Source: a virus
Strand: one strand, 5' to 3'
DNA length: 24,663 nucleotides
Virus record (IMG/VR): IMGVR_UViG_3300031696_000762
Location: 1 to 24,663 of that record
Part shown: piece after piece, positions 2,344-22,557 of the stretch
How the letters are laid out: every line of letters begins with the position of its first letter
Numbering within the stretch: the first letter of the stretch is position 1
Position numbers and translations under genes: made by a program
The notes under the pieces: generated by a model
The model's database searches: none
Told to the model about the DNA's origin: nothing
Seen by the model: the letters and a program-made list of their open reading frames with translations, nothing else

Positions 2344-4857
2344 ATGTCGTTCTATACGTCTATCAACAAATACGGCAACACGCTCTTATATCGTGGTTAT
2401 AACGATAATGGATCTGCAATTACCAAGCGGATCAAGTTCCAACCAACCCTATACATTACATCTCAAGATCGTGATAACCCACCTTGTCGTGGCTTAGATG
2501 GTTGGCCTCTAGCTCCTATGCACTTTGGATCTATGAAAGAGGCTATGGACTTTCGTGACAAGTACAAGGATCTTGAGTCTTTCAAGATCTATGGTAACAC
2601 CAACTTCATTGCACAGTTCGTTACTGAACGTTTCCCTAATGATATCAAGTTCAAGAAAGAGCATGTAAACGTAGTAAACTTTGATATTGAGGTTGCTTCT
2701 GATGAAGGCTTCCCTAAACCAGAAGATGCGCTATTCCCTGTTATCTCAATTGCTTTGAAATCAAGTAAGTCTCAAGTCTACCATGTGTGGGGTCTTGGTG
2801 ACTATGACTATGAGAAGACAGAATTAAACATGGGCAGTGACCTCATACAATACACCAAGTGTGCTAGTGAAGAGGAACTACTTACTAAGTTCTTAACCTA
2901 TTGGGAGAAGAACCCACCTGACATTATTACAGGTTGGAACATCAAGTTCTTTGACGTGCCTTACTTGGTTAATCGTTTGGCTCGTATTGGATCTCCTGCG
3001 GCAGTTAAGCGGATGTCTCCTTGGAATATGGTTAATGACCGTAACAAGACCATCATGGGACGTGAGCACCAATACTATGATTTGGTTGGGATCCAACAAG
3101 CCGACTACATGGAGTTGTTCAAGAAGTTTGGTTACTCATACGGTACACAAGAGTCCTATGCCCTAGACCATATTGCACACACAGTTTTAGGTGAGCGCAA
3201 GTTGTCCTATGAAGAGCATGGATCGTTGCACGAGTTGTACAAGAATGACTATCAGAAGTTCATCGACTATAACATCCGTGATGTTCAAGTCGTGGAGCGT
3301 ATTGATGAGAAGATGGGCTTGATTGCTCTAGTTCTGACTATGACATATCGTGGTGGCGTGAACGTATCTGACACATTCGGCACTACAGCCATTTGGGATA
3401 GCATCATTTATCGTAAGTTGGCTCAAGACAATATCATTGTTCCGCCTGTTCAAGATCACCCTAAGATGTCATATCCGGGTGGGTATGTTAAAGATCCTAT
3501 GGTTGGTGCTCATGATTGGGTTGTATCATTTGACCTTGCGTCACTCTATCCTAACCTGATTGTTCAATACAATATGTCACCTGAGACACTAATGCCTGGT
3601 ATGGTAGAAGGTGGCGTGGAACGTTACTTGAATGGATCCCCAGCTAATAGCGAGTATTCGGTTGCGGCTAACGGTTCACAATATCGTAAAGACAAGCAAG
3701 GCATCCTACCAAAGATCATTGTAGATTACTATGCGGAACGTAAAGCCGTTAAGGGTAAGATGATCGAAGCCAAGAAGCGTTTCGAGAAGACAGGGTCTAT
3801 CGAAGATGAGAAGCTGATCAATAACCTTGAGAACCAACAGATGGCTATTAAGATCCTATTGAACTCTTTGTATGGTGCGTTAGGCAACCGCTACTTCCGT
3901 TACTACGATTTGCGTTTGGCAGAAGGCATTACGTTGTCTGGTCAGTTGTCCATTCTATGGGCAGAGAAAGCCGTAAACAAAGAGATGAATTCTATTCTCA
4001 AAACAAAAGATAAAGACTATGTGATTGCGATTGATACTGACTCTTTGTATGTCTCGTTTGCTGATCTCGTCAATAGGCTAGATCTCAAAGATCCTGTCAA
4101 AGGATTGGATAAGATCTGTGAAGAGCATTTTGTTAAGAAGCTAGGGATTTCATACGCTGAGTTGTTTACTCACATGAATGCCCTTACAAACCGTATGGAC
4201 ATGGAGCGTGAAGCGATTGCAGACCGTGGTATTTGGACTGCCAAGAAGCGGTACATCTTGAATGTTCATAACAACGAAGGTGTGCAGTACACAGAACCTA
4301 AGCTTAAGATCATGGGTATTGAAGCTATCAAATCTTCTACGCCTATGGTAGTTCGAACCAAACTTAAAGAGATCTTTCATGTAATTATCAACGGTACTGA
4401 GCAAACAACTCAACAGTACATTTCGGACTTCCGTAAAGAGTTTAACACTCTAGGACCCGAAGCGGTATCATTCCCTCGTGGGGTGAGCGATGTCGATAAG
4501 TGGGTAGCAGTTCCAAGCACTCAGAACAAGAATAAGCCTTATGCAAAAGGTTGTCCTATTCATGTTCGTGGTGCGTTGGTTTATAACAACGAGATCAAAC
4601 GTCTTTCGCTGAACAAGCGTTATGGACTAATCCAGAATGGCGAGAAGATCAAGTTTGCATACATGCGTCTACCCAACCCACTCAAAGAGAACGTTTTGGC
4701 GTTTCCACAATATCTACCTCAAGAGATGGCTCTACATAAGTACATCGATTATGAAAAGCAGTTTGAGAAGACGTTCCTAGATCCCCTAGAGCCTATCTTA
4801 TCTGCGATTGGTTGGAGACACGAAGACACAATGACATTAGAGGACTTTTTTGTATGA
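2344..4857 (+). CDS. 43: Family B DNA polymerase gp43
   Basis: The replicative DNA polymerase with 3'-5' proofreading, 837 residues, somewhat shorter than T4 gp43 (898). Exonuclease motifs: NFDIEVASDEGFP (Exo I, Asp and Glu), GWNIKFFDVPYLVNRL (Exo II) and YNIRDVQVVERI (Exo III). Polymerase motifs: SFDLASLYPNLI (motif A), KILLNSLYGALGNRYFRYYD (motif B), and YVIAIDTDSLYVSF (motif C, with DTDS), followed by the TAKKRYILNV motif. The C-terminus ends in LEDFFV, consistent with the clamp-binding tail of this family. No intein or split is visible. AAGGAG precedes the ATG, and a consensus promoter lies upstream. The stop overlaps the next start (ATGA). Confidence 0.97.
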   Translation: MSFYTSINKYGNTLLYRGYNDNGSAITKRIKFQPTLYITSQDRDNPPCRGLDGWPLAPMHFGSMKEAMDFRDKYKDLESFKIYGNTNFIAQFVTERFPNDIKFKKEHVNVVNFDIEVASDEGFPKPEDALFPVISIALKSSKSQVYHVWGLGDYDYEKTELNMGSDLIQYTKCASEEELLTKFLTYWEKNPPDIITGWNIKFFDVPYLVNRLARIGSPAAVKRMSPWNMVNDRNKTIMGREHQYYDLVGIQQADYMELFKKFGYSYGTQESYALDHIAHTVLGERKLSYEEHGSLHELYKNDYQKFIDYNIRDVQVVERIDEKMGLIALVLTMTYRGGVNVSDTFGTTAIWDSIIYRKLAQDNIIVPPVQDHPKMSYPGGYVKDPMVGAHDWVVSFDLASLYPNLIVQYNMSPETLMPGMVEGGVERYLNGSPANSEYSVAANGSQYRKDKQGILPKIIVDYYAERKAVKGKMIEAKKRFEKTGSIEDEKLINNLENQQMAIKILLNSLYGALGNRYFRYYDLRLAEGITLSGQLSILWAEKAVNKEMNSILKTKDKDYVIAIDTDSLYVSFADLVNRLDLKDPVKGLDKICEEHFVKKLGISYAELFTHMNALTNRMDMEREAIADRGIWTAKKRYILNVHNNEGVQYTEPKLKIMGIEAIKSSTPMVVRTKLKEIFHVIINGTEQTTQQYISDFRKEFNTLGPEAVSFPRGVSDVDKWVAVPSTQNKNKPYAKGCPIHVRGALVYNNEIKRLSLNKRYGLIQNGEKIKFAYMRLPNPLKENVLAFPQYLPQEMALHKYIDYEKQFEKTFLDPLEPILSAIGWRHEDTMTLEDFFV

Positions 4858-5549
4858 ATTACATATTTGACGTAGACGGAACGCTTACACCTAGTAGATC
4901 TAAGATGGATAAGGAGTTCCTAGAATTCTTTACTAATTGGATTGCTACCCATAAGACAACATTGGTCACAGGATCTCCAAAGGAAATGACCATAGATCAG
5001 ATTGGCTTTGACCTATGGGAGAAACTAAAAGTCTATCAGTGTTCTGGTAATGATGTCTATAATAAGGGAGTTGGTATCAAAACAAATGATTGGAAACTGA
5101 CTAACGAAGCCAACCTGTTCTTGCTTGATAGATTGTATGGATCGTTGTATAGTGTTAGGACAGGTAAGCATTTTGATCACCGTCCTGGGTTGTGTAACTT
5201 CAGTGTGGTTGGTCGTGGTGCAGGACCTTATCAACGCCAAGACTATGTTTGGTATGATGAGATGACTAATGAACGTAAAGCAATTGCTGATGAGTTCAAC
5301 TATAGATTCAAGGGTCACATTCAAGCTACAGTAGCTGGTGACACTGGATTGGATATCACCCCTGTAGGATGTGGTAAGGCTCAGATCCTACCAGATTTTG
5401 AAGGAGAGATAGTCTTCTTTGGAGACAAGACTGCACTAGGTGGTAATGACCATGATATTGCGGTAGCGGTAAGTAGTAGGCCACAGAGTGTGGTACATGC
5501 AGTAAAGTCGTGGGAAAATACCTACGAAGTATTAAAAGGAATTGTTTAA
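4854..5549 (+). CDS. HAD-superfamily protein resembling eukaryotic-type phosphomannomutase
   Basis: A 231-residue protein starting at the ATG that overlaps the gp43 stop. The HAD nucleophile motif is YIFDVDGTLTPSR (Asp6, Asp8). The C-terminal motif FFGDKTALGGNDHDIA (residues 188-203) closely resembles the FFGDKT-x-PGGNDHEI signature of eukaryotic-type phosphomannomutases, and GLCNFSVVGRGA and GLDITPVGCGKAQ also match that family's cap and substrate region. PMM interconverts mannose-6-P and mannose-1-P for GDP-mannose synthesis. In context it could feed the sugar genes at 7-12 kb. An alternative is a sugar-phosphate phosphatase, for instance filling the missing KDO-8-phosphate phosphatase step. 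The family call is firm, the substrate is not. Confidence 0.75.
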   Translation: MNYIFDVDGTLTPSRSKMDKEFLEFFTNWIATHKTTLVTGSPKEMTIDQIGFDLWEKLKVYQCSGNDVYNKGVGIKTNDWKLTNEANLFLLDRLYGSLYSVRTGKHFDHRPGLCNFSVVGRGAGPYQRQDYVWYDEMTNERKAIADEFNYRFKGHIQATVAGDTGLDITPVGCGKAQILPDFEGEIVFFGDKTALGGNDHDIAVAVSSRPQSVVHAVKSWENTYEVLKGIV

Positions 5550-5949: not shown

Positions 5950-6882
5950 ATGTACTCGTTGACAGTATTCAAGAATCAGTATGATAACAAAACAGACAAG
6001 CGGATTGACTTCCAAACTTGGCCTGAGTTTGTTGAACTATTGCGGAAGCTGTCAACGACACCATCCGAAGGGAAAAAGCATGCAGAACTTATATCACCAG
6101 CTGTTTATACATCTGGTACAACTAGATCGAACAAAAATGTCCTGTCTTGGGGATGTTGGGGTGCTGTTGATGTTGACGATCATGTCTTCGAAGGGAACCT
6201 AGAACATGAGCTTGCTTCTAAGTACGGTGATTATAATTACGTTGTTTATAGCACTGCTAGTAGCACGGACGTACATCCTAAGTTTCGCATTGTATTCGAT
6301 CTTGAAACAGAGGTTGAGCAATCTAGAATTCATCACTTCTGGTATGCCCTCAATAAGTGGCTTGGTTCAATTGGAGATGCACAGACTAAGGACATGTCTC
6401 GTATGTATTACATACCAGCTGACTACCCTAACGCTAACAGCTTCTTTTATGTTAATACTGGTCGGCCTATTGATGTCGATGCTCTTCTAGCATCACACCC
6501 ATATGACAAAAGTCGTGATAGTAAGAACTTTATAGACCGTCTCTCACCAGAGATGCAAGTCGCCGTTCTAGAGCACCGCAAATCAAAACTAAACAATACT
6601 CAGTATACTTGGACAGGTTATCGTGACTGCCCATTCTGGCCTAAGAATCTAGCAATCGAATACGCTTCGATCAGTGAGACTGGTTGGTATTCTAAGATGT
6701 ATGCTATAATGGTTAAGACGGCAGGAAATGCAAGCTATCGTGGTTATCCCATAACGTCTGATCAGATTGCAGAGATGTGTTCTCAGTTTGATGCAGAGAA
6801 TGGAAATTGGTATAACAACCGTCCACTGCAAGTTGAAGCAGATCGGGCATTGGAATATATATACAAAAATGGAGTTATATAA
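5950..6882 (+). CDS. Putative archaeo-eukaryotic-type primase/polymerase (AEP-like) protein
   Basis: A 310-residue protein whose first 170 residues fit the AEP/PrimPol catalytic pattern: an acidic motif in WGAVDVDDH (Asp74, Asp76), then YSTASSTDVHPKFRIVFDL (about 100-118), which aligns with the S-x-H..P+FR(I/V) strand of replication-initiator primases, and then GDAQTKDMSRMYYIPADY (142-159), matching the acidic-SR-x-x-Y-(L/I)-P motif. The C-terminal half has no motif I recognise. T4 uses a DnaG-type primase (gp61), not seen in this window, so this could be an alternative or extra primase. The assignment is by motif memory only; the canonical S-x-H is not cleanly preserved. Confidence 0.5.
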   Translation: MYSLTVFKNQYDNKTDKRIDFQTWPEFVELLRKLSTTPSEGKKHAELISPAVYTSGTTRSNKNVLSWGCWGAVDVDDHVFEGNLEHELASKYGDYNYVVYSTASSTDVHPKFRIVFDLETEVEQSRIHHFWYALNKWLGSIGDAQTKDMSRMYYIPADYPNANSFFYVNTGRPIDVDALLASHPYDKSRDSKNFIDRLSPEMQVAVLEHRKSKLNNTQYTWTGYRDCPFWPKNLAIEYASISETGWYSKMYAIMVKTAGNASYRGYPITSDQIAEMCSQFDAENGNWYNNRPLQVEADRALEYIYKNGVI

Positions 6883-6925
6883 TTATGATTATTATACACA
6901 ATGGAGCAAAGTTAGGATGGTGGTT

Positions 6926-7054
6926 ATGAAGGCACAACGTATTGCAAAGGATCGTACCGCTCGTGTACGCCGTTCCGTGATTAAGGGGATTATTGAGGGT
7001 AAGACTAAAAGACTTTATGCCAAACTTCGTCGTATGAGAAAGATGGGTAAATGA
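6926..7054 (+). CDS. Short strongly basic protein (42 aa)
   Basis: A 42-residue ORF rich in Lys and Arg (for example KDRTARVRRSVIKG and KLRRMRKMGK). I chose the ATG at 6926 because TTAGGA precedes it by about eight bases. In-frame ATGs at 6869 and 6917 are possible, but the first would overlap the preceding gene. Its last codons overlap the kdsA start by four bases. The composition suggests nucleic-acid or ribosome binding, but no family is recognised. Confidence 0.5.
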   Translation: MKAQRIAKDRTARVRRSVIKGIIEGKTKRLYAKLRRMRKMGK

Positions 7055-7818
7055 CACGGATCATTGCAGGTCCTTGTCAACACGAAAGCTTTGAACAGTC
7101 CATGGAAATTGCGGCTGAGTGCGAAAGTGTGTGTCGGAGCTTTGGGTTTGATTACATATTCAAAGCAAGTTATGATAAGGCTAACCGAAGTCATGAGAGT
7201 GGAGTTCGTGGTGTTGGTATAGATAAGACACTTAAAGCATTTAGGGAGATGCGGAAAGAACTTCCTAATCTTCAGATCCTTACTGATGTTCACACAACAG
7301 GGGAGATTAATAGAGTAAAGGGTACTGTTGATGTATTACAAATTCCAGCATTCCTAGCAAGACAAACAGATCTTATTAAGGTCGCATGTGAAACAGACTG
7401 TATCGTGAATATCAAGAAAAGCCAATTTATGGCACCTTGGGATATATCTGGTGTGCTATCCAAAACAGAAGGAGCTAAAGAAGTATGGATTACAGAGAGA
7501 GGTGTTTGTTTTGGTTATAACAATCTTGTGGTCGATTTTAATGGTATTCAGTACATGCTTGATAACTACGATGTACCGTTGGTATTTGATGCAACACACT
7601 CGGTACAAAAGCCTAGTGCACTCGGTAAATCTTCTGGTGGTAATCGTGATTACGTTGCAGGTCTTACTCGTTCTGCCTCTGCTTTGGGCGTTAACAACTT
7701 CTTTTTAGAGGTACATAAGGATCCGCCAAGCGCACCAAGTGATGGTGCTAATATGGTGTATCTAAAAAACTTTAAGGATATAGTCTATGATATCTACCGC
7801 TATTCTTATTCCCGCTAG
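7051..7818 (+). CDS. kdsA: 3-deoxy-D-manno-octulosonate 8-phosphate (KDO-8-P) synthase
   Basis: Condenses phosphoenolpyruvate with arabinose-5-phosphate to KDO-8-P, the committed step to KDO of LPS. The 255 residues contain all family landmarks: AGPC-x-x-ES (6-13), FKASYDKANRS (37-47), TDVH (78-81), DVLQIPAFLARQTDL (94-108), VNIKKSQF (119-126), TERGVCFGYNNLVVDF (148-163), FDATHSVQKP and the C-terminal FLEVHKDPPSAPSDG. Cys9, His183, Glu220 and Asp231 have the same spacing as the metal ligands of the Aquifex enzyme (Cys11, His185, Glu222, Asp233), so this is the metal-dependent class, unlike E. coli, which has Asn at the Cys site. It overlaps kdsB by 32 bases. Confidence 0.95.
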   Translation: MTRIIAGPCQHESFEQSMEIAAECESVCRSFGFDYIFKASYDKANRSHESGVRGVGIDKTLKAFREMRKELPNLQILTDVHTTGEINRVKGTVDVLQIPAFLARQTDLIKVACETDCIVNIKKSQFMAPWDISGVLSKTEGAKEVWITERGVCFGYNNLVVDFNGIQYMLDNYDVPLVFDATHSVQKPSALGKSSGGNRDYVAGLTRSASALGVNNFFLEVHKDPPSAPSDGANMVYLKNFKDIVYDIYRYSYSR

Positions 7819-8458
7819 ATGGGGATCTACTAGATACGAAGGTAAGCCATTAGTAGATCTTGATGGAAAGCCTATGATCAAACGTGTGTTTGATGAGTGT
7901 ACAAAGTCTGGACTAGACACGTTTGTGCTCACAGATGATATGCGGATCTTTGAACTGTTTGGATCTGGACAATGTTGGATAGATGAAACCCCTTATAATA
8001 ATGGTACAGAAAGATGTGCAGGGGCTATTGACAATGGGTTCTTTCATAAGTATAATCGCTTTATTAATGTTCAAGGAGATATGCCAGACGTTACTGTGGA
8101 TGTGATCTATATGATCCTCAAGGGATTGAATACATATGACGTGACTACAGTGTGCGCTAAGAATCCAAGTCTAGATCCTAATTGTGTTAAGGTTGACAGA
8201 GATGTTAAAACCAATACAGCCAAATCGTTTACTCGTACTTTACTATTAGATGAGCACCACTTAGGTGTATACGGATATAGTAGAGAAGCATTGCAATTCT
8301 ATGGTACGACACCTTGTGCCATGGAGATTGAACACGGTTTGGAGCAACTTAGGTGGATGCATATGGGCACAACAATTGGTTGTCATCCTGTTGAGTGGGA
8401 TGGTATAGAAATAAATACACCAAAAGATGCTAACGAATGGAAAAGAAAGAGGATATAA
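7787..8458 (+). CDS. kdsB: 3-deoxy-manno-octulosonate cytidylyltransferase (CMP-KDO synthetase)
   Basis: Activates KDO with CTP to give CMP-KDO, the donor for LPS inner core assembly. The 223 residues begin ILIPARWGSTRYEGKPLVDL, the nucleotide-binding signature of the family; then NNGTERCAGA (71-80, matching SGTERLAE-type), NVQGDMP (94-100, normally NVQGDEP), HLGVYGYSREAL (158-169), EHGLEQLRWMHMG (182-194) and GIEINTPKDANEW. E. coli KdsB is 248 residues, so this is slightly short. AAGGA lies eight bases before the ATG, inside the kdsA 3' end. Together with KdsA the phage encodes two of the steps from arabinose-5-P to CMP-KDO; no KdsC or KdsD is recognised in the window. Confidence 0.92.
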   Translation: MISTAILIPARWGSTRYEGKPLVDLDGKPMIKRVFDECTKSGLDTFVLTDDMRIFELFGSGQCWIDETPYNNGTERCAGAIDNGFFHKYNRFINVQGDMPDVTVDVIYMILKGLNTYDVTTVCAKNPSLDPNCVKVDRDVKTNTAKSFTRTLLLDEHHLGVYGYSREALQFYGTTPCAMEIEHGLEQLRWMHMGTTIGCHPVEWDGIEINTPKDANEWKRKRI

Positions 8459-8459
8459 A

Positions 8460-9419
8460 ATGGATGCGTTGACGATATGGATGGTGGTAGGATTTATATT
8501 CGCCGCTTACTCAGTAATAGCAAACGATTCGGTACAGACTTTGGGTACATGGATTGCAAGTAATAAAGAAAGATTTAGTTGGAAGACTATGTGGTTAGCC
8601 GCTTCTGGTGTACTACTCTATACCCTTTGGTATGGTTGGTATATGAATGGTGGTGATATCAGTTATGGAAGACTTAATAAGATTCCGTTTCAAGAAGTAC
8701 AGTGGTATCATGCAATGGCACCAGCAGTACTTTTACTATTGACCAGAGTGGGGGTTCCAGTATCCACATCATTCTTGGTTCTATCGGCATTTGCTTCTAC
8801 ATTCGTGTTGGAGAAAATGTTAATGAAATCTATGATGGGCTATGCTGTTGCCGCAATTGCCGCTTATGGAATCTGGATGGTCGTAAGTAGACTACTAGAC
8901 GAAGCAAAGCCTGTTAAAGAAGAACACAAAACATATTGGCGAGTGGGACAATGGGTAACAACAGGGTTCCTGTGGTTTACTTGGCTGAGTCATGACATGG
9001 CAAATATTGCAGTGTTCCTTCCACGCACCTTAGACGTTCCATTGATGATTATGATTAGTGTAGTCTTTGTTGGTGGTTTGGCATTCATGCTACGTGAAGG
9101 TGGTGGTAAGATCCAACAGATTGTTATTGAGAAGCACAACACACGTTATGTACGTTCTGCTACTATTATCGATGCAGTCTATTGGGCAATTCTAGTATTC
9201 TTTAAAGAGTTGAATGATATTCCTATGTCAACAACATGGGTGTTTGTAGGTCTCTTATGTGGACGTGAGTTAGCAATGGCTACATATACAGGTAAGGGAA
9301 AAATCAAGACAGTGTTTCCATTAATAGGTAAAGACTTCTTGAAGATGATGGTTGGGCTTGGTGCTTCGTTGGGAATTGTCCTTATGATACATTACGTCCT
9401 AGTACCGAATGGATATTAA
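8460..9419 (+). CDS. PiT-family-like inorganic phosphate permease
   Basis: A 319-residue integral membrane protein with about ten hydrophobic segments. Two internal repeats carry the hallmarks of PiT (Pi:cation symport) proteins: IANDSVQTLGT (20-30) with VGVPVSTS (97-104), and LSHDMANIAVFLP (176-188) with DIPMSTTW (253-260). These correspond to the GAND-x-x-N-x-x-GT and PVSTTH motifs. The second repeat has SHD for GAND, and both STTH-type motifs lack the His, so the substrate is an inference. I chose the ATG at 8460, preceded by GAGG, directly after kdsB; the next gene starts immediately after its stop. Raising phosphate uptake during infection would suit a phage in low-phosphate sea water. 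Confidence 0.65.
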   Translation: MDALTIWMVVGFIFAAYSVIANDSVQTLGTWIASNKERFSWKTMWLAASGVLLYTLWYGWYMNGGDISYGRLNKIPFQEVQWYHAMAPAVLLLLTRVGVPVSTSFLVLSAFASTFVLEKMLMKSMMGYAVAAIAAYGIWMVVSRLLDEAKPVKEEHKTYWRVGQWVTTGFLWFTWLSHDMANIAVFLPRTLDVPLMIMISVVFVGGLAFMLREGGGKIQQIVIEKHNTRYVRSATIIDAVYWAILVFFKELNDIPMSTTWVFVGLLCGRELAMATYTGKGKIKTVFPLIGKDFLKMMVGLGASLGIVLMIHYVLVPNGY

Positions 9420-9761
9420 ATGATAGCAGGTAAAGTGTGGGGTGGAACAGAACTAGTAGAAGCCAATGGCGCACTAGAGTTCCACAGAATTGAAATGAAT
9501 AAAGGTGGAGTATGCTCTAAGCATCTCCACGAATTCAAATGGAATGGTTTCTATGTCGAGAGTGGGCGTATGCTTATTCGTGTTTGGCAGAATGATTATG
9601 ATCTTGTTGACGAGACTATTCTAGATCCTGGGATGTACACTAAGGTAAGGCCTGGGGTGTATCATCAGTTTGAATGTCTTGAAGAGGGTGTTGCCTTCGA
9701 ATTGTATTGGGCAGAATTCAATCATCAAGATATTAAAAGAGAAACTGTAGGGCATGGCTAA
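9420..9761 (+). CDS. Cupin-domain protein
   Basis: A 113-residue single-domain cupin. The first motif carries His35-x-His37 (SKHLHEFKWNGFYVESGRMLI) and the second PGVYHQF with His82, giving a plausible metal site. It resembles the small cupins found beside nucleotide-sugar genes, including the cupin part of type II mannose-6-phosphate isomerases. The ATG follows the permease stop with no gap, and the 3' end overlaps the next ORF by eight bases. Given the neighbours (KDO, UDP-sugar and PMM-like genes) a role in sugar metabolism is possible, but the substrate cannot be read from the sequence. Confidence 0.7.
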   Translation: MIAGKVWGGTELVEANGALEFHRIEMNKGGVCSKHLHEFKWNGFYVESGRMLIRVWQNDYDLVDETILDPGMYTKVRPGVYHQFECLEEGVAFELYWAEFNHQDIKRETVGHG

Positions 9762-9949: not shown

Positions 9950-10771
9950 ATGCGTATTGCAGTGGTTGGTTATGGATTTGTGGGTAAAGCTGTTGAACAT
10001 GGCTTTACCTACAAGGATAATAAATTGCAGTTAATAGATCCTAATTTAGGTACAGATGTTTATGATGTAGATCCTGATACGGATGCGTCATTTGTTTGCG
10101 TACCCACACCATTTGGTGAAGACGGATCTATTGACGCCTCAACAGTTATAAGTGTGGTTACTAAACTTGCTTTGATAACAAACGGACTTATCATTATTAA
10201 GTCTACAGTCATTCCAAGTATAGTTAAACAGTTGTCTGGTATGTTTGATAGGGTGGTCTACAATCCTGAGTTCCTCACAGAACGAAACGCACTACACGAC
10301 TTTGTTAATCCGCCTATGCACATTTTTGGTGGATCTGATCAGTCAACCGATGATCTACACAAGTTATATAAAGAATCGAGTAAATGTAAACCGTGTCCAG
10401 TACACAAGATGACTGCACAAGATGCATCGTTTGTTAAGTATGGGGTTAATTCGTTTCTTGCCACAAAGGTTATGTGGTTCAACCAATTTAAGGAGTTGAT
10501 TGATGGAAATGGTTCTGATTACGATACTGTTATTAGTGCTATTGGTGTTGATGAGAGGATTCATTCTTCCCATACTGTGGTTCCTGGTGAAGATGGTCGT
10601 TTTGGTTTTGGTGGTGCTTGCTTCCCTAAAGATACTAATGCATTCAGTGCATTTGGTGGCGGAACAATGTCAATACTTGATCTAGTGATTAAAGAGAATA
10701 ACAAGATCCGTTCACAATACGAACTGGATGATAGAGAAAAAGCGCAGAAAGTGGTTTACAACGTTTCCTAG
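9950..10771 (+). CDS. UDP-glucose/GDP-mannose dehydrogenase-like protein lacking the C-terminal domain
   Basis: Family enzymes oxidise UDP-glucose to UDP-glucuronate in two NAD-dependent steps. The N-terminal Rossmann motif is VVGYGFVGKAV (5-15), followed by VPTPF (51-55), KSTVIP (84-89), YNPEFLTE (104-111), FVKYGVNSF with Lys164, and the catalytic-Cys motif FGGACFPKDTNAF with Cys224. At 273 residues it lacks the usual third domain that binds the UDP moiety (family members are about 390-450 residues), yet it ends at a normal stop just before a promoter. It may be a natural short form. I start at the ATG 9950 (AGGTGG upstream) rather than GTG 9938. The next gene would use its product. Confidence 0.82.
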   Translation: MRIAVVGYGFVGKAVEHGFTYKDNKLQLIDPNLGTDVYDVDPDTDASFVCVPTPFGEDGSIDASTVISVVTKLALITNGLIIIKSTVIPSIVKQLSGMFDRVVYNPEFLTERNALHDFVNPPMHIFGGSDQSTDDLHKLYKESSKCKPCPVHKMTAQDASFVKYGVNSFLATKVMWFNQFKELIDGNGSDYDTVISAIGVDERIHSSHTVVPGEDGRFGFGGACFPKDTNAFSAFGGGTMSILDLVIKENNKIRSQYELDDREKAQKVVYNVS

Positions 10772-10783: not shown

Positions 10784-10801
10784 GCATGAAAGGAGATGAA
10801 T

Positions 10802-11773
10802 ATGAAAGTAATGATCACAGGAATGGCGGGGTTTATAGGATATCACCTTGCCAACTCGCTACTAGACGATGGACATGAAGTTGTAGGATTTGATAACTTC
10901 AACCACTATTATGATGTTTCTCTAAAGAACGCTAGAGCAAACAATCTAAGAATGCGTGGTGTAGAGACATCCTATATGGATCTCAAAGATCTGGATAGTA
11001 TCACTGATTTCATCATGGGAGAATACCCCGACATCGTAATGCACCTAGCGGCATATGCTGGGGTTAGACATTCTCTTAATAATCCACAACAATACATTGA
11101 TAATAACATGACAGGTTCGCAGAACTTGATCACAGCCTGTGAGGAAGCAGGTATTGAGAACATTGTGTACGCATCTTCGTCTTCAGTTATGGCAGGTAAT
11201 CCTATGCCACAAGATGAATATGAAAAGCTACCACGTGCACTCAATCCATACTCATTTACTAAAGCCGCTAATGAAGCGCAGTTTATGTCTAGTCCAATTC
11301 GCAATACAGTAGGACTTAGGTTCTTTACGGTTTACGGTCCTTGGGGTCGCCCCGATATGGCACTATTCGATTTCACCACCAAGATCATTGATGAAGATCG
11401 TATTGATTTGTATAACTACGGTGATATGTCAAGAGACTTTACTTACATTGATGATATCATACAAGGTATCATGATTACGTTGAAGCACACACAGAGTCAG
11501 GGATTGCATCCTAATCATGAGGAACATTACAACGAAGTCTTTAACATTGCATATGGTAAACGTATCCCATTAACCGATTTTGTTGATGCTATTGAGGATA
11601 ACTTGGGACGCAAGGCAATTCGTAATCCAGTCGCAATGCACAAAGCAGATGCAAAAGACACTTGGGCGTCTATTGACAAACTTAAGAAATTGGGGTATAA
11701 TCCGACTACACCTATGAAAGATGGGGTTGCTAAGTTTGTAGGGTGGTATAAGGAATACTATAATGTCAACTAA
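10802..11773 (+). CDS. NAD-dependent sugar epimerase, UDP-glucuronate 4-epimerase-like
   Basis: A 323-residue extended short-chain dehydrogenase. The Rossmann motif ITGMAGFIGYHLANSLL (5-21) is followed by VVGFDNFNHYYDVSLKNAR, the start typical of UDP-glucuronate 4-epimerases (DN-x-N-x-YYD-x-x-LK). The catalytic dyad is YSFTK (Tyr150, Lys154), then VYGPWGRPDMALF (178-189) and RDFTYIDDII. The usual SSVYG is SSVMAG here. The expected reaction is UDP-glucuronate to UDP-galacturonate, which fits the dehydrogenase-like gene upstream. I start at ATG 10802, six bases after AAGGAG; the ATG at 10796 abuts the ribosome site. It overlaps the next gene by 11 bases. Confidence 0.85.
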   Translation: MKVMITGMAGFIGYHLANSLLDDGHEVVGFDNFNHYYDVSLKNARANNLRMRGVETSYMDLKDLDSITDFIMGEYPDIVMHLAAYAGVRHSLNNPQQYIDNNMTGSQNLITACEEAGIENIVYASSSSVMAGNPMPQDEYEKLPRALNPYSFTKAANEAQFMSSPIRNTVGLRFFTVYGPWGRPDMALFDFTTKIIDEDRIDLYNYGDMSRDFTYIDDIIQGIMITLKHTQSQGLHPNHEEHYNEVFNIAYGKRIPLTDFVDAIEDNLGRKAIRNPVAMHKADAKDTWASIDKLKKLGYNPTTPMKDGVAKFVGWYKEYYNVN

Positions 11774-12191
11774 ACGTGTGGGGCTAACTGCCTCTACATT
11801 TGATTTATTGCATGCAGGTCATGTGATGATGTTGCGTGAGGCTAAGTCACAATGTGATTGGCTAATCTGTGCCTTGCAGATTGATCCCTCTGTTGATCGT
11901 AATGAGAAGAATAGTCCTATACAAACCATTGTAGAAAGACAAGCACAACTTGAAGCTATTGAATATGTTGATGAGGTCATTATCTACTGTACAGAATCAG
12001 ATTTAATTGATATAATTAACATGTATCCAATTAATGTTCGCATACTTGGTGACGAATATAAGAATAGAGACTTTACTGGTAAAGAGCTTGCTCGACAGTT
12101 GGGGATCGAAACATATTATAACAGTCGAACACATAGGTTCTCTACGAGTGATCTACGAGAACGTGTTTGCAACGAAAGGAAGACTAAATGA
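11763..12191 (+). CDS. Cytidylyltransferase-family nucleotidyltransferase (TagD/HldE-C-like)
   Basis: A 142-residue protein of the small cytidylyltransferase class: the HxGH signature in TFDLLHAGHVMML (12-24), and the C-terminal RFSTSDLRER, which matches the (R-x-x-G)IST-x-x-(I/L)R motif that binds the nucleotide. Length and motifs fit glycerol-3-phosphate cytidylyltransferase (TagD) or the nucleotidyltransferase half of HldE, which makes ADP-heptose; specificity cannot be decided. It overlaps both neighbours and follows two UDP-sugar enzymes, so activation of a polyol phosphate or sugar phosphate for a surface glycan is likely. Confidence 0.78.
   Translation: MSTKRVGLTASTFDLLHAGHVMMLREAKSQCDWLICALQIDPSVDRNEKNSPIQTIVERQAQLEAIEYVDEVIIYCTESDLIDIINMYPINVRILGDEYKNRDFTGKELARQLGIETYYNSRTHRFSTSDLRERVCNERKTK
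12093..12120 (+). promoter_or_regulatory. Candidate sigma70-type promoter for uvsX
   Basis: TCGACA at 12093-12098 and TATTAT at 12115-12120 with a 16-base spacer, each one base off consensus. It lies inside the cytidylyltransferase gene, 68 bases before the uvsX ATG. It is less perfect than the other promoters in the window and could be chance. Confidence 0.35.
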
Positions 12192-16977: not shown

Positions 16978-16988
16978 TATATGTCACA
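16973..16988 (+). promoter_or_regulatory. Perfect CRP/FNR-type palindrome upstream of tmRNA promoter
   Basis: TGTGATATATGTCACA: the exact CRP half-sites TGTGA and TCACA separated by six bases, overlapping the stop codon of the kinase-like gene. Further half-sites lie nearby: TCACA at 17003-17007 (ATGTCACA is directly repeated at 16981 and 17000) and TGTGA at 17031-17035 beside the -10. The main palindrome is centred about 67 bases before the likely transcription start. That a CRP-type regulator binds here is inference. Confidence 0.5.
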
Positions 16989-17012
16989 ACATTAAATCAA
17001 TGTCACAGTCCA

Positions 17013-17041
17013 TTGACACTTTAGGTGGTCTGTGATACTAT
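17013..17041 (+). promoter_or_regulatory. Promoter of the tmRNA-outer-membrane protein unit
   Basis: TTGACA at 17013-17018 and TACTAT at 17036-17041 with a 17-base spacer. The -35 is perfect, the -10 is weaker (4 of 6), which suits an activated promoter. An overlapping TATAAATT at 17041-17048 is one base off the T4 late octamer. The inverted repeat TCACAG (17003-17008) / CTGTGA (17030-17035) brackets the -35. Confidence 0.65.
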
Positions 17042-17047
17042 ATAAAT

Positions 17048-17363
17048 TGTAGACGTTGAAGCAACGTGGACACATTCTGGACTTGGGGGCAGTACCCAAC
17101 CGCTCCACCAAAAGTGCATTGCGTCCTACTGCAATAGGAAGTTTTGCAGAACATAGATGGCCCAAATGGGTGCGTCGAAGCTATGCACTTTTGATGGGGC
17201 GGAACTAGGATCGACAGGTGTGAAAGTGAACGTGGAGTTTATCGGGTGACTGCGTAATTGGTCAAAACTACTAAATGCAAACAATAACTTTGCTCCTTCT
17301 GAATTGCGCCTAGCGGCCTAATTTAAGGGGGTTGGCGACTTACCTAGCAACAGAAAAGTCGTA
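17048..17363 (+). ncRNA. ssrA: Two-piece (circularly permuted) tmRNA
   Basis: The acceptor part comes first: a T-arm TTGGG-GGCAGTA-CCCAA (17083-17099), then CCGCTCC (17100-17106) and ACCA (17107-17110). The coding part begins at 17196 with GGGGCGG, which pairs with CCGCTCC to form the seven-base acceptor stem (one G-U pair), followed by AACTAGGATCGACAGG, the conserved tmRNA 5' region. The tag reading frame is at 17277-17321. Between the parts is an excised segment bounded by the inverted repeat AAAAGTGCAT (17110-17119) / ATGCACTTTT (17183-17192). A hairpin near the 3' end pairs 17336-17341 with 17356-17361. This permuted layout is the alphaproteobacterial type. tmRNA rescues stalled ribosomes and tags the product. 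Outer ends are approximate. Confidence 0.92.
17277..17321 (+). other. tmRNA proteolysis-tag reading frame
   Basis: From the resume codon GCA at 17277 the frame reads ANNNFAPSELRLAA and ends with TAA at 17319-17321. The start (A-N-x-N-F-A) matches alphaproteobacterial tags such as ANDNFAEEFAVAA, and the LAA end is the usual ClpXP degron. The middle PSELR is unlike the tags I know. Confidence 0.9.
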
Positions 17364-17386
17364 CTAACAATTAACAAGGAATGAAC

Positions 17387-19125: not shown

Positions 19126-19531
19126 TGCGGAGTTAACTTTTACTTTTAAGAACCCTTCCTTTAGTGGGCAAGGATATTCTTCCCATGCACTATCTACTGA
19201 GCAATTACTGTTCAATAGGCAGAAGGACAGAAACGACGAAATGAGAGCGGAAGCTAATCGCATTGAGCGTGAGCTAGAGAATACCACATTAAACAAATTT
19301 ATTAAGAACCTTGAGAGTAGAATATATGCGACACTGAGTAAACAGATGGTTGACTCCATGTTTGCGGAGTGTACAGGAGATGATTGCGCTAGTAGCGGAT
19401 CTACAGAGATTGAGGGAAGTACGATTGAGTGGTCTAAAGATTCTACTACAGGATCTATCACCTTAGTCATAACAAATGACGATGGTACTACAACTATTAC
19501 TATTCCAGGATCAGGGGAGTTTAACTTCTGA
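19067..19531 (+). CDS. csgF: CsgF-like curli assembly factor
   Basis: CsgF caps the CsgG pore outside the outer membrane and couples secretion to curlin nucleation. The 154 residues start with a signal peptide (MKKKMILSLIALVLLPTQSNA), and the mature N-terminus ELTFTFKNPSFSGQ matches the CsgF segment TMTFQFRNPNFGG that plugs into CsgG. The C-terminus IEWSKDSTTGSITLVITN and TTTITIPGSGEF aligns with the CsgF beta domain (YIVDIANRDGQLQLNVTD ... STIQVSG). A middle helix and the pair CTGDDC are extra relative to E. coli (138 residues). I start at ATG 19067 with AGG eight bases upstream. Its stop overlaps the csgG start. Confidence 0.88.
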   Translation: MKKKMILSLIALVLLPTQSNAELTFTFKNPSFSGQGYSSHALSTEQLLFNRQKDRNDEMRAEANRIERELENTTLNKFIKNLESRIYATLSKQMVDSMFAECTGDDCASSGSTEIEGSTIEWSKDSTTGSITLVITNDDGTTTITIPGSGEFNF

Positions 19532-20331
19532 TGCGTTTTGCTTTGATAACGATAATAGCATTACTTGCAGGTTGTGCGGATCTTTCGCAGTATCCTATAG
19601 GACAAGAGCCTGTGGTACAGGTTTCTCCTAATGATATTTCCGACTATCCTCAGATGGATGGTAAGGTTATGACCATTGCTGTTTATCAGTTTAAGGATAT
19701 GACAGGACAGAGAAAGCCTAGCAGTGGGGGTGCAAGTTTAAGTAGTGCCGTTACTCAAGGTGCGGAAGTGTGGGTGATCAAAGCATTACAAGATGTTGGT
19801 CACGGAACATGGTTTGAGGTTGTTGAACGAGTTGGTCTTGACAATTTAGTCAGAGAGAGACAGCTTGTTAGAAACACAAGAGAAGTCTATGAGAAGAACC
19901 TCGCAGACGGACCTACGCCTCTAAAGCCAATGGTATTTGCTGGTCTCATTCTTGAGGGTGGCATTGTTGGTTATGACTCAAGTGTGGCTACAGGTGGATC
20001 AGGTGCAAAGTATCTTGGTCTTGGTGTTCAACAACAATATAGAGTTGATACCGTCACAATAGTCATGAGATTAGTTAGTGTTAGCACAGGTAAGGTATTA
20101 CTGAGTGTTGCTACTGAAAAGAACATAGCAAGTCACCAAACAGGCGCAGATATGTTTAAGTTCTTTGATATGGGGACTAAGTTAGTTGAAGCGGAAACTG
20201 GTTATAGTTTGAATGAACCAGTTAATTATGCAGTCAGATCAGCGATTGAGGCTGGCGTTATTGAACTTATTAACGAAGGGAAAAACAGACAATTCTGGAA
20301 GTTTTTGGTAGATCCAAAGGCTGGCGGATGA
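19531..20331 (+). CDS. csgG: CsgG-like outer-membrane curli secretion channel
   Basis: CsgG is a lipoprotein forming the nonameric outer-membrane pore for curlin export. The 266 residues have a lipobox LLAGC (Cys15) and align along the whole E. coli protein (277): AVYQFKDMTGQRKP, the SSAVTQGAEVWVIKALQD helix, RVGLDNLVRERQLVR, GGIVGYDSSVATGGSGAKYLG, DTVTIVMRLVSVSTGKVLLSV, and the C-terminal NEPVNYAVRSAIEAGVIELI. The loop that forms the channel constriction in E. coli (PYPASNF, with Tyr51, Asn55, Phe56) reads PSSGGASL here, with no aromatic residue, so the pore may be wider. It is directly downstream of csgF and upstream of the curlin-like gene. Confidence 0.93.
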   Translation: MRFALITIIALLAGCADLSQYPIGQEPVVQVSPNDISDYPQMDGKVMTIAVYQFKDMTGQRKPSSGGASLSSAVTQGAEVWVIKALQDVGHGTWFEVVERVGLDNLVRERQLVRNTREVYEKNLADGPTPLKPMVFAGLILEGGIVGYDSSVATGGSGAKYLGLGVQQQYRVDTVTIVMRLVSVSTGKVLLSVATEKNIASHQTGADMFKFFDMGTKLVEAETGYSLNEPVNYAVRSAIEAGVIELINEGKNRQFWKFLVDPKAGG

Positions 20332-20343
20332 TAGGAAATATTA

Positions 20344-21063
20344 ATGAAGTATTCATCGAAGCTTTTAGTATTGGTGTGCGCACTTAGCATACCATTTACG
20401 CCGATTAGCGCAAACGACATATACATAACACAGGTTGGTGACACTTTAGATTTGGACATTGTCCAAGACGGTCAGAACAACACCATAGGTACTAGTCTAC
20501 AAGATGTAGTTTTAGGATCTGTTAGTGGTGCTTCCGACTCTATGACATTCAGCATAACACAGACAGGTAACTCGAACAGCATTACGGCACAAATTCTTGG
20601 TAGCACCTATGTAGGTACTTGGGACATATTGGGCAGTAATAATGAGATCGATCTTATGTGTTCTAGTGCCGCTGGGGGTAACTGCGATACTGTGACACTT
20701 AACATTGATGCCGATGGCGACAACCAAGACTATACAATCAATATTGGTGAGACCGCAGATGCGAGTAACTCTACAATCAACTTCACAGTTGACGATAGCG
20801 GAAACGTTATCACAACAGATGTTGATGGTACAAGTGCGTCTATAACAGTAGCAATTGATAAGAACGCAAGTCTTGAAACGTCTAACAGCACATTAGACAT
20901 TGACGTTTCTGGTGATGGAGATCTTAACGGACACACAATCAGTCTTGACTTAAAGGGTCGTGGGCATGCTGTTGTTATAAACCAAAGTGGTATATACGAC
21001 AACGTAATTGATCTTCACACAAATGGCGATACACAAGCTATAAACATCACACAATCTGACTGA
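20344..21063 (+). CDS. Curlin-like secreted amyloid-repeat protein (CsgA/CsgB-like)
   Basis: A 239-residue protein with a signal peptide (KLLVLVCALSIPFTPISA) and repeats of the curlin type (S-x5-Q-x-G-x-x-N-x(A/I)-x3-Q): NDIYITQVGD...IVQDGQNNTI, MTFSITQTGNSNSITAQI, and a final HAVVINQSGIYDNVIDL...INITQSD. The middle is more degenerate, rich in Asp, Asn, Ser and Thr with alternating hydrophobics, as in a beta-solenoid or functional amyloid. One Cys pair (CSSAAGGNC) is present, unlike E. coli CsgA/B. AGGAA precedes the ATG by six bases. It follows csgG and overlaps the FecR gene (TGATG). It is the likely main substrate of the CsgG/F channel. Confidence 0.8.
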   Translation: MKYSSKLLVLVCALSIPFTPISANDIYITQVGDTLDLDIVQDGQNNTIGTSLQDVVLGSVSGASDSMTFSITQTGNSNSITAQILGSTYVGTWDILGSNNEIDLMCSSAAGGNCDTVTLNIDADGDNQDYTINIGETADASNSTINFTVDDSGNVITTDVDGTSASITVAIDKNASLETSNSTLDIDVSGDGDLNGHTISLDLKGRGHAVVINQSGIYDNVIDLHTNGDTQAINITQSD

Positions 21064-22196
21064 TGTTAAAGTACTTTTTATTATTAGTGTGTATGTCTAC
21101 TTCGGCATATGCAAACATTGGCGAGATTGCCCAACTTAAAGGTAAAGAAGGTGGTGCGGCGATTGAGCGTGATAACTCCGCAATAAGTGCGGAGAAGGGT
21201 ACTGGAATACAAATGGATGATACGGCAGTTACGGCTAACTCTGCCATGACTATCAACTTCATTGATGAGACAAGAGTTGACATAACAGAACACTCACGTC
21301 TTATCATTGATGACTTTGTTTATGACCCATCTACTGGAAAGGGATCACTTGGTCTCAAAGCAAGTTTAGGAACAATCCGATACGCAAGTGGTCAGATTGC
21401 CAAAAATAGTAGACAAAGGGTAAGAATACGAACTCCATCTGCAACGATTGGTGTTCGTGGCACAGACTTCATTATGGTTGTGGATGAAACAGGTGGTAGT
21501 ATGGTCACATTACTTCCAAGTTGTGATACAGCAGGCATGTGCTACACAGGAGAGATAACAGTCGAGACGGATGTTGGATTTGTCGTACTTAATAAAGCAT
21601 TCCAAGTTACGGTAGCATCAACTAGTAACAATAAACCAACACCACCACTTTTGTTGGATATTGATGAAAGCATGATCAACCAACTGCTGATCCTACGTAA
21701 GCAGAATCCATACTTTGAAGAGCAAAGCAGAATTCTAATTGAGAAACGACAGGCCGCAGACTTCCTTGGGTTAGACTTTCTACAGTATGAGGGGTTGGAC
21801 TATGACGCCTTAGTTGATTCAATAGAGGGAATTTGGCTTACTGAACTTGATTTGGACGTAGACTACCTTAAAGACTTACTGTATGATATGTTAGATCAAT
21901 TGAATGAGGCATTAAAGAGATTGTTTAGTGATGAACTTGCTGATCAGAATGCAATGCTACTGAGACAGGAAGCGAATATATATGGATTAGATCCATTGAC
22001 AGGTATCTCCTTACTAAACCAAACACCTAATTGGGTGTTCTCTAGAAGAAATGATAGCGGAGAAAACTTCGTACAACTAAGATTAAATCAGGCATATGGT
22101 TATACTATAGATCTGCAACAGAACGATTGGGAGTTATATGACTACAGGTTGGGGGATAACACTGGCAACTCTATTGACATTTATCAGCAACGCTAG
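21063..22196 (+). CDS. FecR-domain secreted protein
   Basis: A 377-residue exported protein: signal peptide MLKYFLLLVCMSTSAYA, then a FecR domain at about 20-150 with the typical run VDITEHSRLIIDDFVYDP, GLKASLGTIRYASGQIAK and VRIRTPSATIGVRGTDFIM, and a pair CDTAGMC at its end. The middle is helical and acidic. The C-terminus (DYRLGDNTGNSIDIYQQR) looks like one curlin-type repeat. There is no inner-membrane span, so it should be periplasmic or extracellular, unlike the iron regulator FecR. FecR proteins often lie next to CHASE2 cyclases in bacteria, as here. It overlaps the second curlin-like gene by 59 bases. Confidence 0.85.
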   Translation: MLKYFLLLVCMSTSAYANIGEIAQLKGKEGGAAIERDNSAISAEKGTGIQMDDTAVTANSAMTINFIDETRVDITEHSRLIIDDFVYDPSTGKGSLGLKASLGTIRYASGQIAKNSRQRVRIRTPSATIGVRGTDFIMVVDETGGSMVTLLPSCDTAGMCYTGEITVETDVGFVVLNKAFQVTVASTSNNKPTPPLLLDIDESMINQLLILRKQNPYFEEQSRILIEKRQAADFLGLDFLQYEGLDYDALVDSIEGIWLTELDLDVDYLKDLLYDMLDQLNEALKRLFSDELADQNAMLLRQEANIYGLDPLTGISLLNQTPNWVFSRRNDSGENFVQLRLNQAYGYTIDLQQNDWELYDYRLGDNTGNSIDIYQQR

Positions 22197-22557
22197 TTTT
22201 GCTAATGACTTAGACATCACACAGATAGGTGATGACTTTGTTCTAAATGTAAATCAAGATGGAGAGAACCATGAGGCAGAGATCATCGTTGACGGTGATG
22301 AAAACGATGTGGCGTTGATGCAGACAGGAGCATCCAAATATGCATATCTTGATATGGATGGCACACCCCACGACTTTGATATATCTCAGACAGGATCTGG
22401 TAACCATTATTTGAGTATAAATATTACAACAGGAAGTATGGCAATAGCGGATATCAACTCAACGCAATATGGAACTAATAGTATGTCATATACAGTTAAT
22501 GGAAGTTGTTGGGCAGATACTGGTTGTGCTCTTAATATAAGTCAGAACGGTAACTAA
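22138..22557 (+). CDS. Second curlin-like repeat protein
   Basis: A 139-residue protein with a signal-like N-terminus (TLATLLTFISNASFA) and curlin-type repeats: NDLDITQIGDDFVLNVNQDG, closely matching the first repeat of the 20344 protein; HDFDISQTGSGNHYLSINI; DINSTQYGTNSM; and a terminal LNISQNGN. It has a Cys pair CWADTGC. The start ATG at 22138 lies inside the FecR gene, four bases after GGGAG. The signal lacks the usual Lys/Arg, so the start is a little uncertain. By analogy to E. coli one of the two curlin-like proteins may be the nucleator (CsgB role); which one cannot be told. Confidence 0.75.
   Translation: MTTGWGITLATLLTFISNASFANDLDITQIGDDFVLNVNQDGENHEAEIIVDGDENDVALMQTGASKYAYLDMDGTPHDFDISQTGSGNHYLSINITTGSMAIADINSTQYGTNSMSYTVNGSCWADTGCALNISQNGN

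Follow-up and report, generated by a model that had tools for sequence, protein, structure and literature searches.

In Aquifex aeolicus KdsB, D95 and D219 are described as the strictly conserved Mg-A ligands of the enzyme (PMC3149649). Viral genes for KdsA and KdsB have been recorded in marine AMG lists (PMC10653327), a trench study has kdsB (PMC9529941), and kdsA is on record from seamount viruses (PMC11018836) and, together with NeuA, from one T4-like environmental genome (PMC5332604). LPS-related genes and curli have been described for pelagimyophages (PMC7029224), and the searchable text of that paper yielded no mention of kds or KDO. In the literature within reach of our search, in which subscription journals are thinly covered, we found neither the KdsB variant nor phage Kdo transferases described. 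The presence of viral kdsA and kdsB is thus already in print, and the parts that appear to be new are a clade of variant KdsBs and their transferase partners.

The DNA analyzed here is an IMG/VR phage fragment of 24,663 bases (hereafter the window, meaning the whole stretch). Its DNA polymerase is closest to that of Phage C48C1 (56.5%), followed by those of cyanomyoviruses, its CsgG gene is closest to that of Pelagibacter phage HTVC008M (49.6%), and positions 16988-17365 hold a permuted alphaproteobacteria-type tmRNA gene (113.9 bits). For G002 (L092-L094), a relative of 160 kb, the tail sheath too is closest to that of C48C1, and the top ten matches also include the Melnitz and Mosig phages. 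Therefore, the polymerase, sheath and CsgG affinities, together with the tmRNA type, place the phage among T4-like marine myoviruses near the pelagimyophages. At 19531-24590 the phage carries, in a row, CsgG, two ORFs with curlin-like repeats (recognized by eye), a FecR-domain protein and a CHASE2-adenylate cyclase, which together make a pelagiphage-like curli-type cluster with a cyclase. By eye, many radical-SAM-like and several glycosyltransferase-like ORFs can be read in G002.

The kds genes and the neighboring features of the window are as follows.

4854-5549, + strand: HAD-IIB phosphomannomutase-family protein (PF03332; PDB phosphomannomutases)
6917-7054, + strand: small basic ORF, 45 aa if it starts at 6917 (start chosen by eye), ending in an ATGA overlap with kdsA
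7051-7818, + strand: kdsA, Kdo-8-P (3-deoxy-8-phosphooctulonate) synthase of the metal-dependent class, 255 aa (NF003543, PDB matches, metal site, dN/dS)
7787-8458, + strand: kdsB-like CMP-Kdo synthetase of the phage clade, 223 aa, with Asn210 for the second Mg-A aspartate (PF02348; NCBIfam kdsB models below cut-off)
8427-9419, + strand: multi-pass membrane protein, resembling PiT phosphate permeases by eye, whose gene overlaps the end of kdsB (ORF)
9420-9761, + strand: small cupin, common in these phages and not kds-specific (PF07883)
9950-10771, + strand: UDP-glucose/GDP-mannose dehydrogenase-like protein (PF03721/PF00984 above cut-off; TIGR03026 below cut-off)
10796-11773, + strand: NAD-dependent nucleotide-sugar epimerase, SDR (PF01370; PHROG 540, nucleotide-sugar epimerase)
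11763-12191, + strand: nucleotidyltransferase resembling the HldE C-terminal part or glycerol-3-P cytidylyltransferase (TIGR02199 and TIGR01518 below cut-off; PHROG 7878)

The small ORF before kdsA, whose stop overlaps the kdsA start, lies within an open frame spanning 6767-7054 and is likely to be on the same transcript. The 3' end of kdsA and the 5' end of kdsB share 32 nt, and both reading frames are whole. The membrane protein gave no match in Pfam, NCBIfam or PHROG.

KdsA of the window scored 318 bits against NF003543, the equivalog model of Kdo-8-P synthase (cut-off 242), and 303 bits against TIGR01362, narrowly below the cut-off of 314. The family match is far beyond chance (E 3e-95 in the NCBIfam scan), and PDB matches were as strong as E 1.8e-68, the best being 3fs2. 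Cys9, His183, Glu220 and Asp231 align with the C/H/E/D metal ligands of the A. aeolicus chain, bearing out the metal-dependent class proposed in the initial annotation; these four residues and the KANR motif are invariant in 24/24 phage KdsAs, and the Cys column is N in the E. coli row. Between the window and locus L004, kdsA shows 10 synonymous codon differences and 1 non-synonymous (dN 0.0017, dS 0.063), and dN/dS is 0.13-0.19 in four other pairs. These data indicate that the phage KdsA is a genuine member of the metal-dependent class under purifying selection.

Homology of the second gene product to KdsB is also far beyond chance (E 8e-39), with scores that fall under all five NCBIfam kdsB cut-offs (133/234, 128/193, 113/281, 110/255 and 104/155 bits/cut-off). 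Its first Mg-A aspartate is kept as D98, the second is replaced by N210, and QGDEP has become QGDMP. The family assignments and conserved residues support the phage-borne KdsA/KdsB pair read by the initial annotation, which had also regarded both enzymes as intact; careful alignment upholds this for the reading frames and the KdsA metal site, but not for the active site of KdsB. R16, K20, H158, Y162, E186, Q187 and R189, covering the CTP-site Arg/Lys, HxGxYxY and LEQLR motifs, are kept in all 20 phage KdsB rows, and we take some of them to bind Kdo.

The substitution is conserved in these phages. In an alignment with E. coli KdsB and KpsU, the second Mg-A column is Asn in 41/41 distinct marine-phage KdsBs, and QGDMP replaces QGDEP in all 40 that have letters at those columns. 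Asn also fills this column in 40/40 distinct KdsBs lying around phage kdsA genes (39 by pattern, L062 by eye), a set reached through kdsA and not picked by KdsB motifs. A wider set gave Asn in 100/102, a figure biased towards Asn by the inclusion of loci retrieved with the EIN pattern. The KdsB of cyanophage S-SCSM2R has Asp in this column. Among 32 non-phage rows, 28 have Asp and four have Asn, namely two roseobacter plasmid genes, one Marinisomatota-group gene and the MAG contig L107, which rules out an Asn-type KdsB exclusive to phages. Scanning the genomes of 84,980 species with the phage profile gave three loci, under patterns that demand either QGDM or an HLGVY motif in its phage form and so do not count all Asn-type enzymes. 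Two of the three, L105 and L106 (153- and 335-kb contigs of the Neomarinimicrobiota MAG RS350), have a phage-like region with kds, GT99-like and cupin genes and are probably phage contigs binned with that MAG.

Both roseobacter plasmid kdsB genes that adjoin kdsA carry Asn, and thus an Asn-type KdsB need not be dead and may still work as an enzyme. Presumably, GlmU-type enzymes also use Asn as a metal ligand at the place matching Asn210. Conversely, the residue could signify lowered or altered activity. Between the window and L004, kdsB shows 7 synonymous and 8 non-synonymous codon differences (dN/dS about 0.26); two other pairs gave 0.11 and 0.13, and a fourth was saturated. The window gene is a genuine, non-canonical KdsB homologue, under purifying selection that these comparisons show to be looser than that on kdsA.

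Phylogenetic analysis separated both phage proteins from bacterial ones. In the KdsA tree, 24 marine-phage rows lie on one side of a branch with support of 99/96 that recurs in 100% of 200 bootstrap trees, and in the KdsB tree 20 phage rows do so at 99/88 and in 99% of bootstrap trees; each set includes L105, the MAG contig labeled as phage by its neighborhood. Each phage protein therefore appears as a clade of its own. The roseobacter Asn-type genes join the phage side of the KdsB tree at 93/93, on a branch that is not starred, and are its nearest non-phage branch, L107 aside. Because the non-phage rows are few and many are plasmid-borne (KdsA, 10 rows from named bacteria; KdsB, 8 such rows and 22 from MAGs or the Marinisomatota group), the trees do not pin down the donor of the phage genes. 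L005 is 96% identical to the window in KdsA and 54% in KdsB, so kdsA and kdsB are exchangeable separately, and kdsB has apparently been swapped there beside a near-identical kdsA. Plasmids of Gram-positive bacteria also turned up, with kdsA and kpsF in Leuconostoc citreum (L300), kdsB in Streptomyces (L302), and matches to kdsA/kdsB in Bacillus velezensis (H35, H112).

Relatives of kdsA are common in marine phages, being encoded on 224 viral contigs (229 matched stretches), from which 80 loci were kept for study. Within these, KdsB was found in 56, the cupin in 62, the HAD protein in 26, a GT42-like family (c37) in 12 and a GT99-like family (c18) in 23; many loci are cut by contig ends, and such presence counts are lower bounds. 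Seen from KdsB, 74 of 80 loci have KdsA, adjacent and on the same strand in 66.

A search of 28 kdsA-bearing records gave no homologue of KdsC or KdsD, and the host probably supplies both steps. The HAD protein at 4854, which the initial annotation had put forward as a candidate replacement for the missing KdsC, exists and its DxD motif is intact, but it is homologous to phosphomannomutases: its family alignment (A3) matched PDB phosphomannomutases at E 1e-46, and its RPGxxNFSxxGR stretch has an aligned counterpart in those enzymes. It gave no KdsC match in the NCBIfam scan and is not of the small, capless HAD type of KdsC. Its gene lies next to the polymerase in some phages and within the sugar cassette in others, and 24 of 30 cupin-centered loci with the HAD protein have no kdsA or kdsB in reach. 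This distribution and the phosphomannomutase homology make it a poor candidate for the replacement, and it was rejected as such. The cupin was attractive as a substitute for KdsD, the arabinose-5-P isomerase, because of its presence in most kdsA loci; it was rejected, since KdsA or KdsB is in reach in 23 of 80 cupin loci and neither in 57, and its PDB matches are weak, with a best E of 0.064.

Candidate transferases were sought in the related phages. The c18 family, of which one lineage has several copies upstream of kdsA, had four PDB sequence matches at E up to 10, all to the WbbB beta-Kdo transferase domain and weak (E 0.15). Its structure was predicted with a pLDDT of 88.6. In VIA, the top 15 rows were the retaining beta-Kdo transferases KpsC, WbbB and KrkA (Z 11.1-14.5; best row Z 14.5 over 241 residues, rmsd 3.9), followed by UDP-GlcNAc 2-epimerases at Z 10.4, and in Foldseek the top 14 rows were KpsC/WbbB/KrkA, with E from 2.9e-8. 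One of these structures, 5FA0, is the GT99 beta-Kdo domain (PMC9587256). The model thus assigns c18 the KpsC/WbbB-type fold of the retaining beta-Kdo transferases GT99/GT107. In 25 sequences, catalytic columns matched by motif, of which alignment backs the HP column only, are not uniform: they read E in 12 and D in 13 at the catalytic Glu, D in 13, N in 7 and E in 5 at the Asp nucleophile, and H in 20 and K in 5 at the HP-histidine. KdsA was found in 28 of 80 c18 loci, and kds genes in 14 of the 25 with full flanks. PF05159 gave sub-cut-off matches in 4 of the 28 kdsA-bearing records and none above cut-off.

All nine PDB sequence matches of the c37 family were GT42 sialyltransferases (best E 2.9e-4). 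Of 80 c37 loci, 52 have kdsA in reach, about 1 kb away in 48, and among loci with full flanks 19/30 have kds genes. KdsB occurs in only 4/80, so that the remainder would lean on host KdsB. Both c18 and c37 are also found without kds in reach. One cassette (L369:9153-12784; also L374, L387 and L397) reads tail-fibre-like, GT42-like, QueD-like 6-pyruvoyl-tetrahydropterin synthase, kdsA and glycosyltransferase-like, and the role of the QueD-like gene adjoining kdsA is unexplained.

Neither c18 nor c37 was found in G002, which has an A7-family protein at 37,990-38,568 beside glycosyltransferase-like ORFs (by eye) and kdsA at 78,852-79,604. For the lineage of the window, this protein, about 40 kb from kdsAB, is the only candidate transferase. 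Profile comparison aligned A7 with c37 (probability 76%), and a model of a member (L088:17981; pLDDT 89.6) gave Maf at Z 11.1 in VIA, GT42 sialyltransferases including Cst-II at 9.5-10.0 and the next unrelated row at 9.4; Foldseek gave nothing at E 0.001 or better. A GT42/Maf-like nature of A7 in the 160-kb relative is suggestive only. With KdsA in 1/10 A7 records, A7 is not supported as a kds-specific partner. Across 15 large kds-bearing records, c18 occurs in 8, c37 in 7, A7 in 2 and any of them in 12 (union counted by hand).

We hypothesize that the phage kdsAB boosts CMP-Kdo, or a close relative, for phage transferases that remodel a surface glycan, and does not primarily serve upkeep of the LPS inner core; we regard this as evenly balanced between right and wrong. 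The two genes, as a phage operon with coupled translation, would increase the amount of CMP-Kdo or a close 3-deoxy-ulosonate available in infection. KdsA would condense arabinose-5-P with PEP, the host would provide the missing KdsD isomerase and KdsC phosphatase steps, and the variant KdsB would activate the sugar with CTP. Phage transferases would then add it to a surface glycan (an O-chain or capsule-like chain), and the altered glycan would change the receptor and exclude other phages. Gene identity, conservation, the phage-specific clades, the Asp-to-Asn variant, and the linkage and transferase folds in related phages are observed here; the enzyme activity, the sugar, its acceptor, the gain to the phage and the transferase used by the phage of the window are inferred. 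A change of receptor structure, one of several options in the initial annotation, gains support from transferase partners of capsule/O-antigen or sialyltransferase-type folds.

Alternatively, kdsAB might sustain normal inner-core and lipid A synthesis and keep the outer membrane sound during host gene shut-down. KdsA and KdsB are classical LPS enzymes, and viral kdsA/kdsB are listed among lipopolysaccharide-biosynthesis AMGs (PMC10653327). However, no dedicated Kdo or lipid A gene was recognized in the window beyond the pair, an HldE-C-like gene being present, and the 28 records have no KdsC, KdsD or above-cut-off PF05159, the three families searched for there. Sustaining the LPS, as initially suggested, is further weakened by the phage-specific clades, by a KdsB variant common to roseobacter plasmid kds genes and by partners in related phages that are transferases of other kinds, with folds that are not inner-core; we consider it unlikely. 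Modification of phage DNA with a Kdo-like sugar, a use to which T4-like phages put other nucleotide sugars, seems very improbable: the UDP-sugar dehydrogenase and epimerase of the window do sit between replication genes, but the linked transferases carry folds of surface-glycan enzymes, and no hydroxymethylated-base enzyme was recognized by eye in the ORF list of the 160-kb relative.

The activated sugar might instead decorate the virion, on a tail fibre or another structural protein. The product of L369:9153-9989, adjoining the GT42-like transferase in the kdsA cassette, matches tail-fibre/virion-structural PHROGs, and a long ORF comes after that cassette; yet tail-fibre and LPS genes are intermingled anyway in the host-recognition regions of T4-like marine phages (PMC7029224), and the window itself gives no sign of such decoration, so we rate this as unlikely. 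Finally, KdsB might no longer be a Kdo cytidylyltransferase, being inactive or altered in substrate, and the pair a degraded or repurposed remnant. Such a loss would fit an Mg-A aspartate turned to Asn in nearly all phage members, QGDMP and the sub-cut-off scores. It is quite unlikely in view of an Asn that is conserved and not drifting (40/40 distinct), the retention of every other checked motif, purifying selection, and the same Asn in 2/2 roseobacter kdsB genes adjoining kdsA.

Beyond surface-glycan remodeling in general, a more specific and tentative possibility is that marine T4-like phages own a Kdo branch, in which a phage-specific KdsA and an Asn-type CMP-ulosonate synthetase feed phage Kdo transferases (KpsC/WbbB-like or GT42-like, by lineage) that build a Kdo-containing coat the host alone does not make. 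If true, this phage-built glycan would be a coat for superinfection exclusion or receptor switch. LPS-type genes of marine phages have long been catalogued without a mechanism, and a synthetase pair with an active-site variant and nearby candidate Kdo transferases narrows "LPS auxiliary genes" down to one pathway that can be tested for its sugar, enzyme and acceptor. The Asn-type KdsBs also offer a natural set for probing how strictly CMP-Kdo synthetases hold to a two-metal mechanism.

Compared with known systems, the c18 family near kdsA shares a fold, as predicted, with KpsC/WbbB/KrkA, from which it differs by an identity of 11-14%, catalytic positions that are not uniform and its absence from the window's 160-kb relative. 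Cyanophage S-SCSM2R (PQ898602) is a named phage in which kdsA and kdsB adjoin near glycosyltransferases; its KdsA and KdsB are 37.5% and 28.0% identical to those of the window, its KdsB has the canonical Asp, and its two genes are convergent. Phage KdsA has the C/H/E/D site, KANR, substrate motifs and full-length alignment in common with the metal-dependent enzymes of bacteria (A. aeolicus 1fwn; 3fs2), whereas it stands on its own long branch (99/96) and is at most 48.4% identical to plasmid-borne bacterial KdsAs among the matches listed. The roseobacter plasmid genes annotated as "manno-octulosonate cytidylyltransferase" (Sagittula, with kpsF; Roseovarius) resemble phage kdsB in the Asn at the same position and in adjoining kdsA; unlike it, they lie on bacterial plasmids, lack the QGDM motif and join by a long branch. 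Relative to canonical KdsB (E. coli L-CKS 3k8d; KpsU 1gq9; A. aeolicus), the phage enzyme is shorter, scores below the NCBIfam cut-offs and has Asn for the second Mg-A Asp and QGDMP for QGDEP, while RxxSxR...GK, GTER, QGD, HxGxYxY and LEQLR are common to both.
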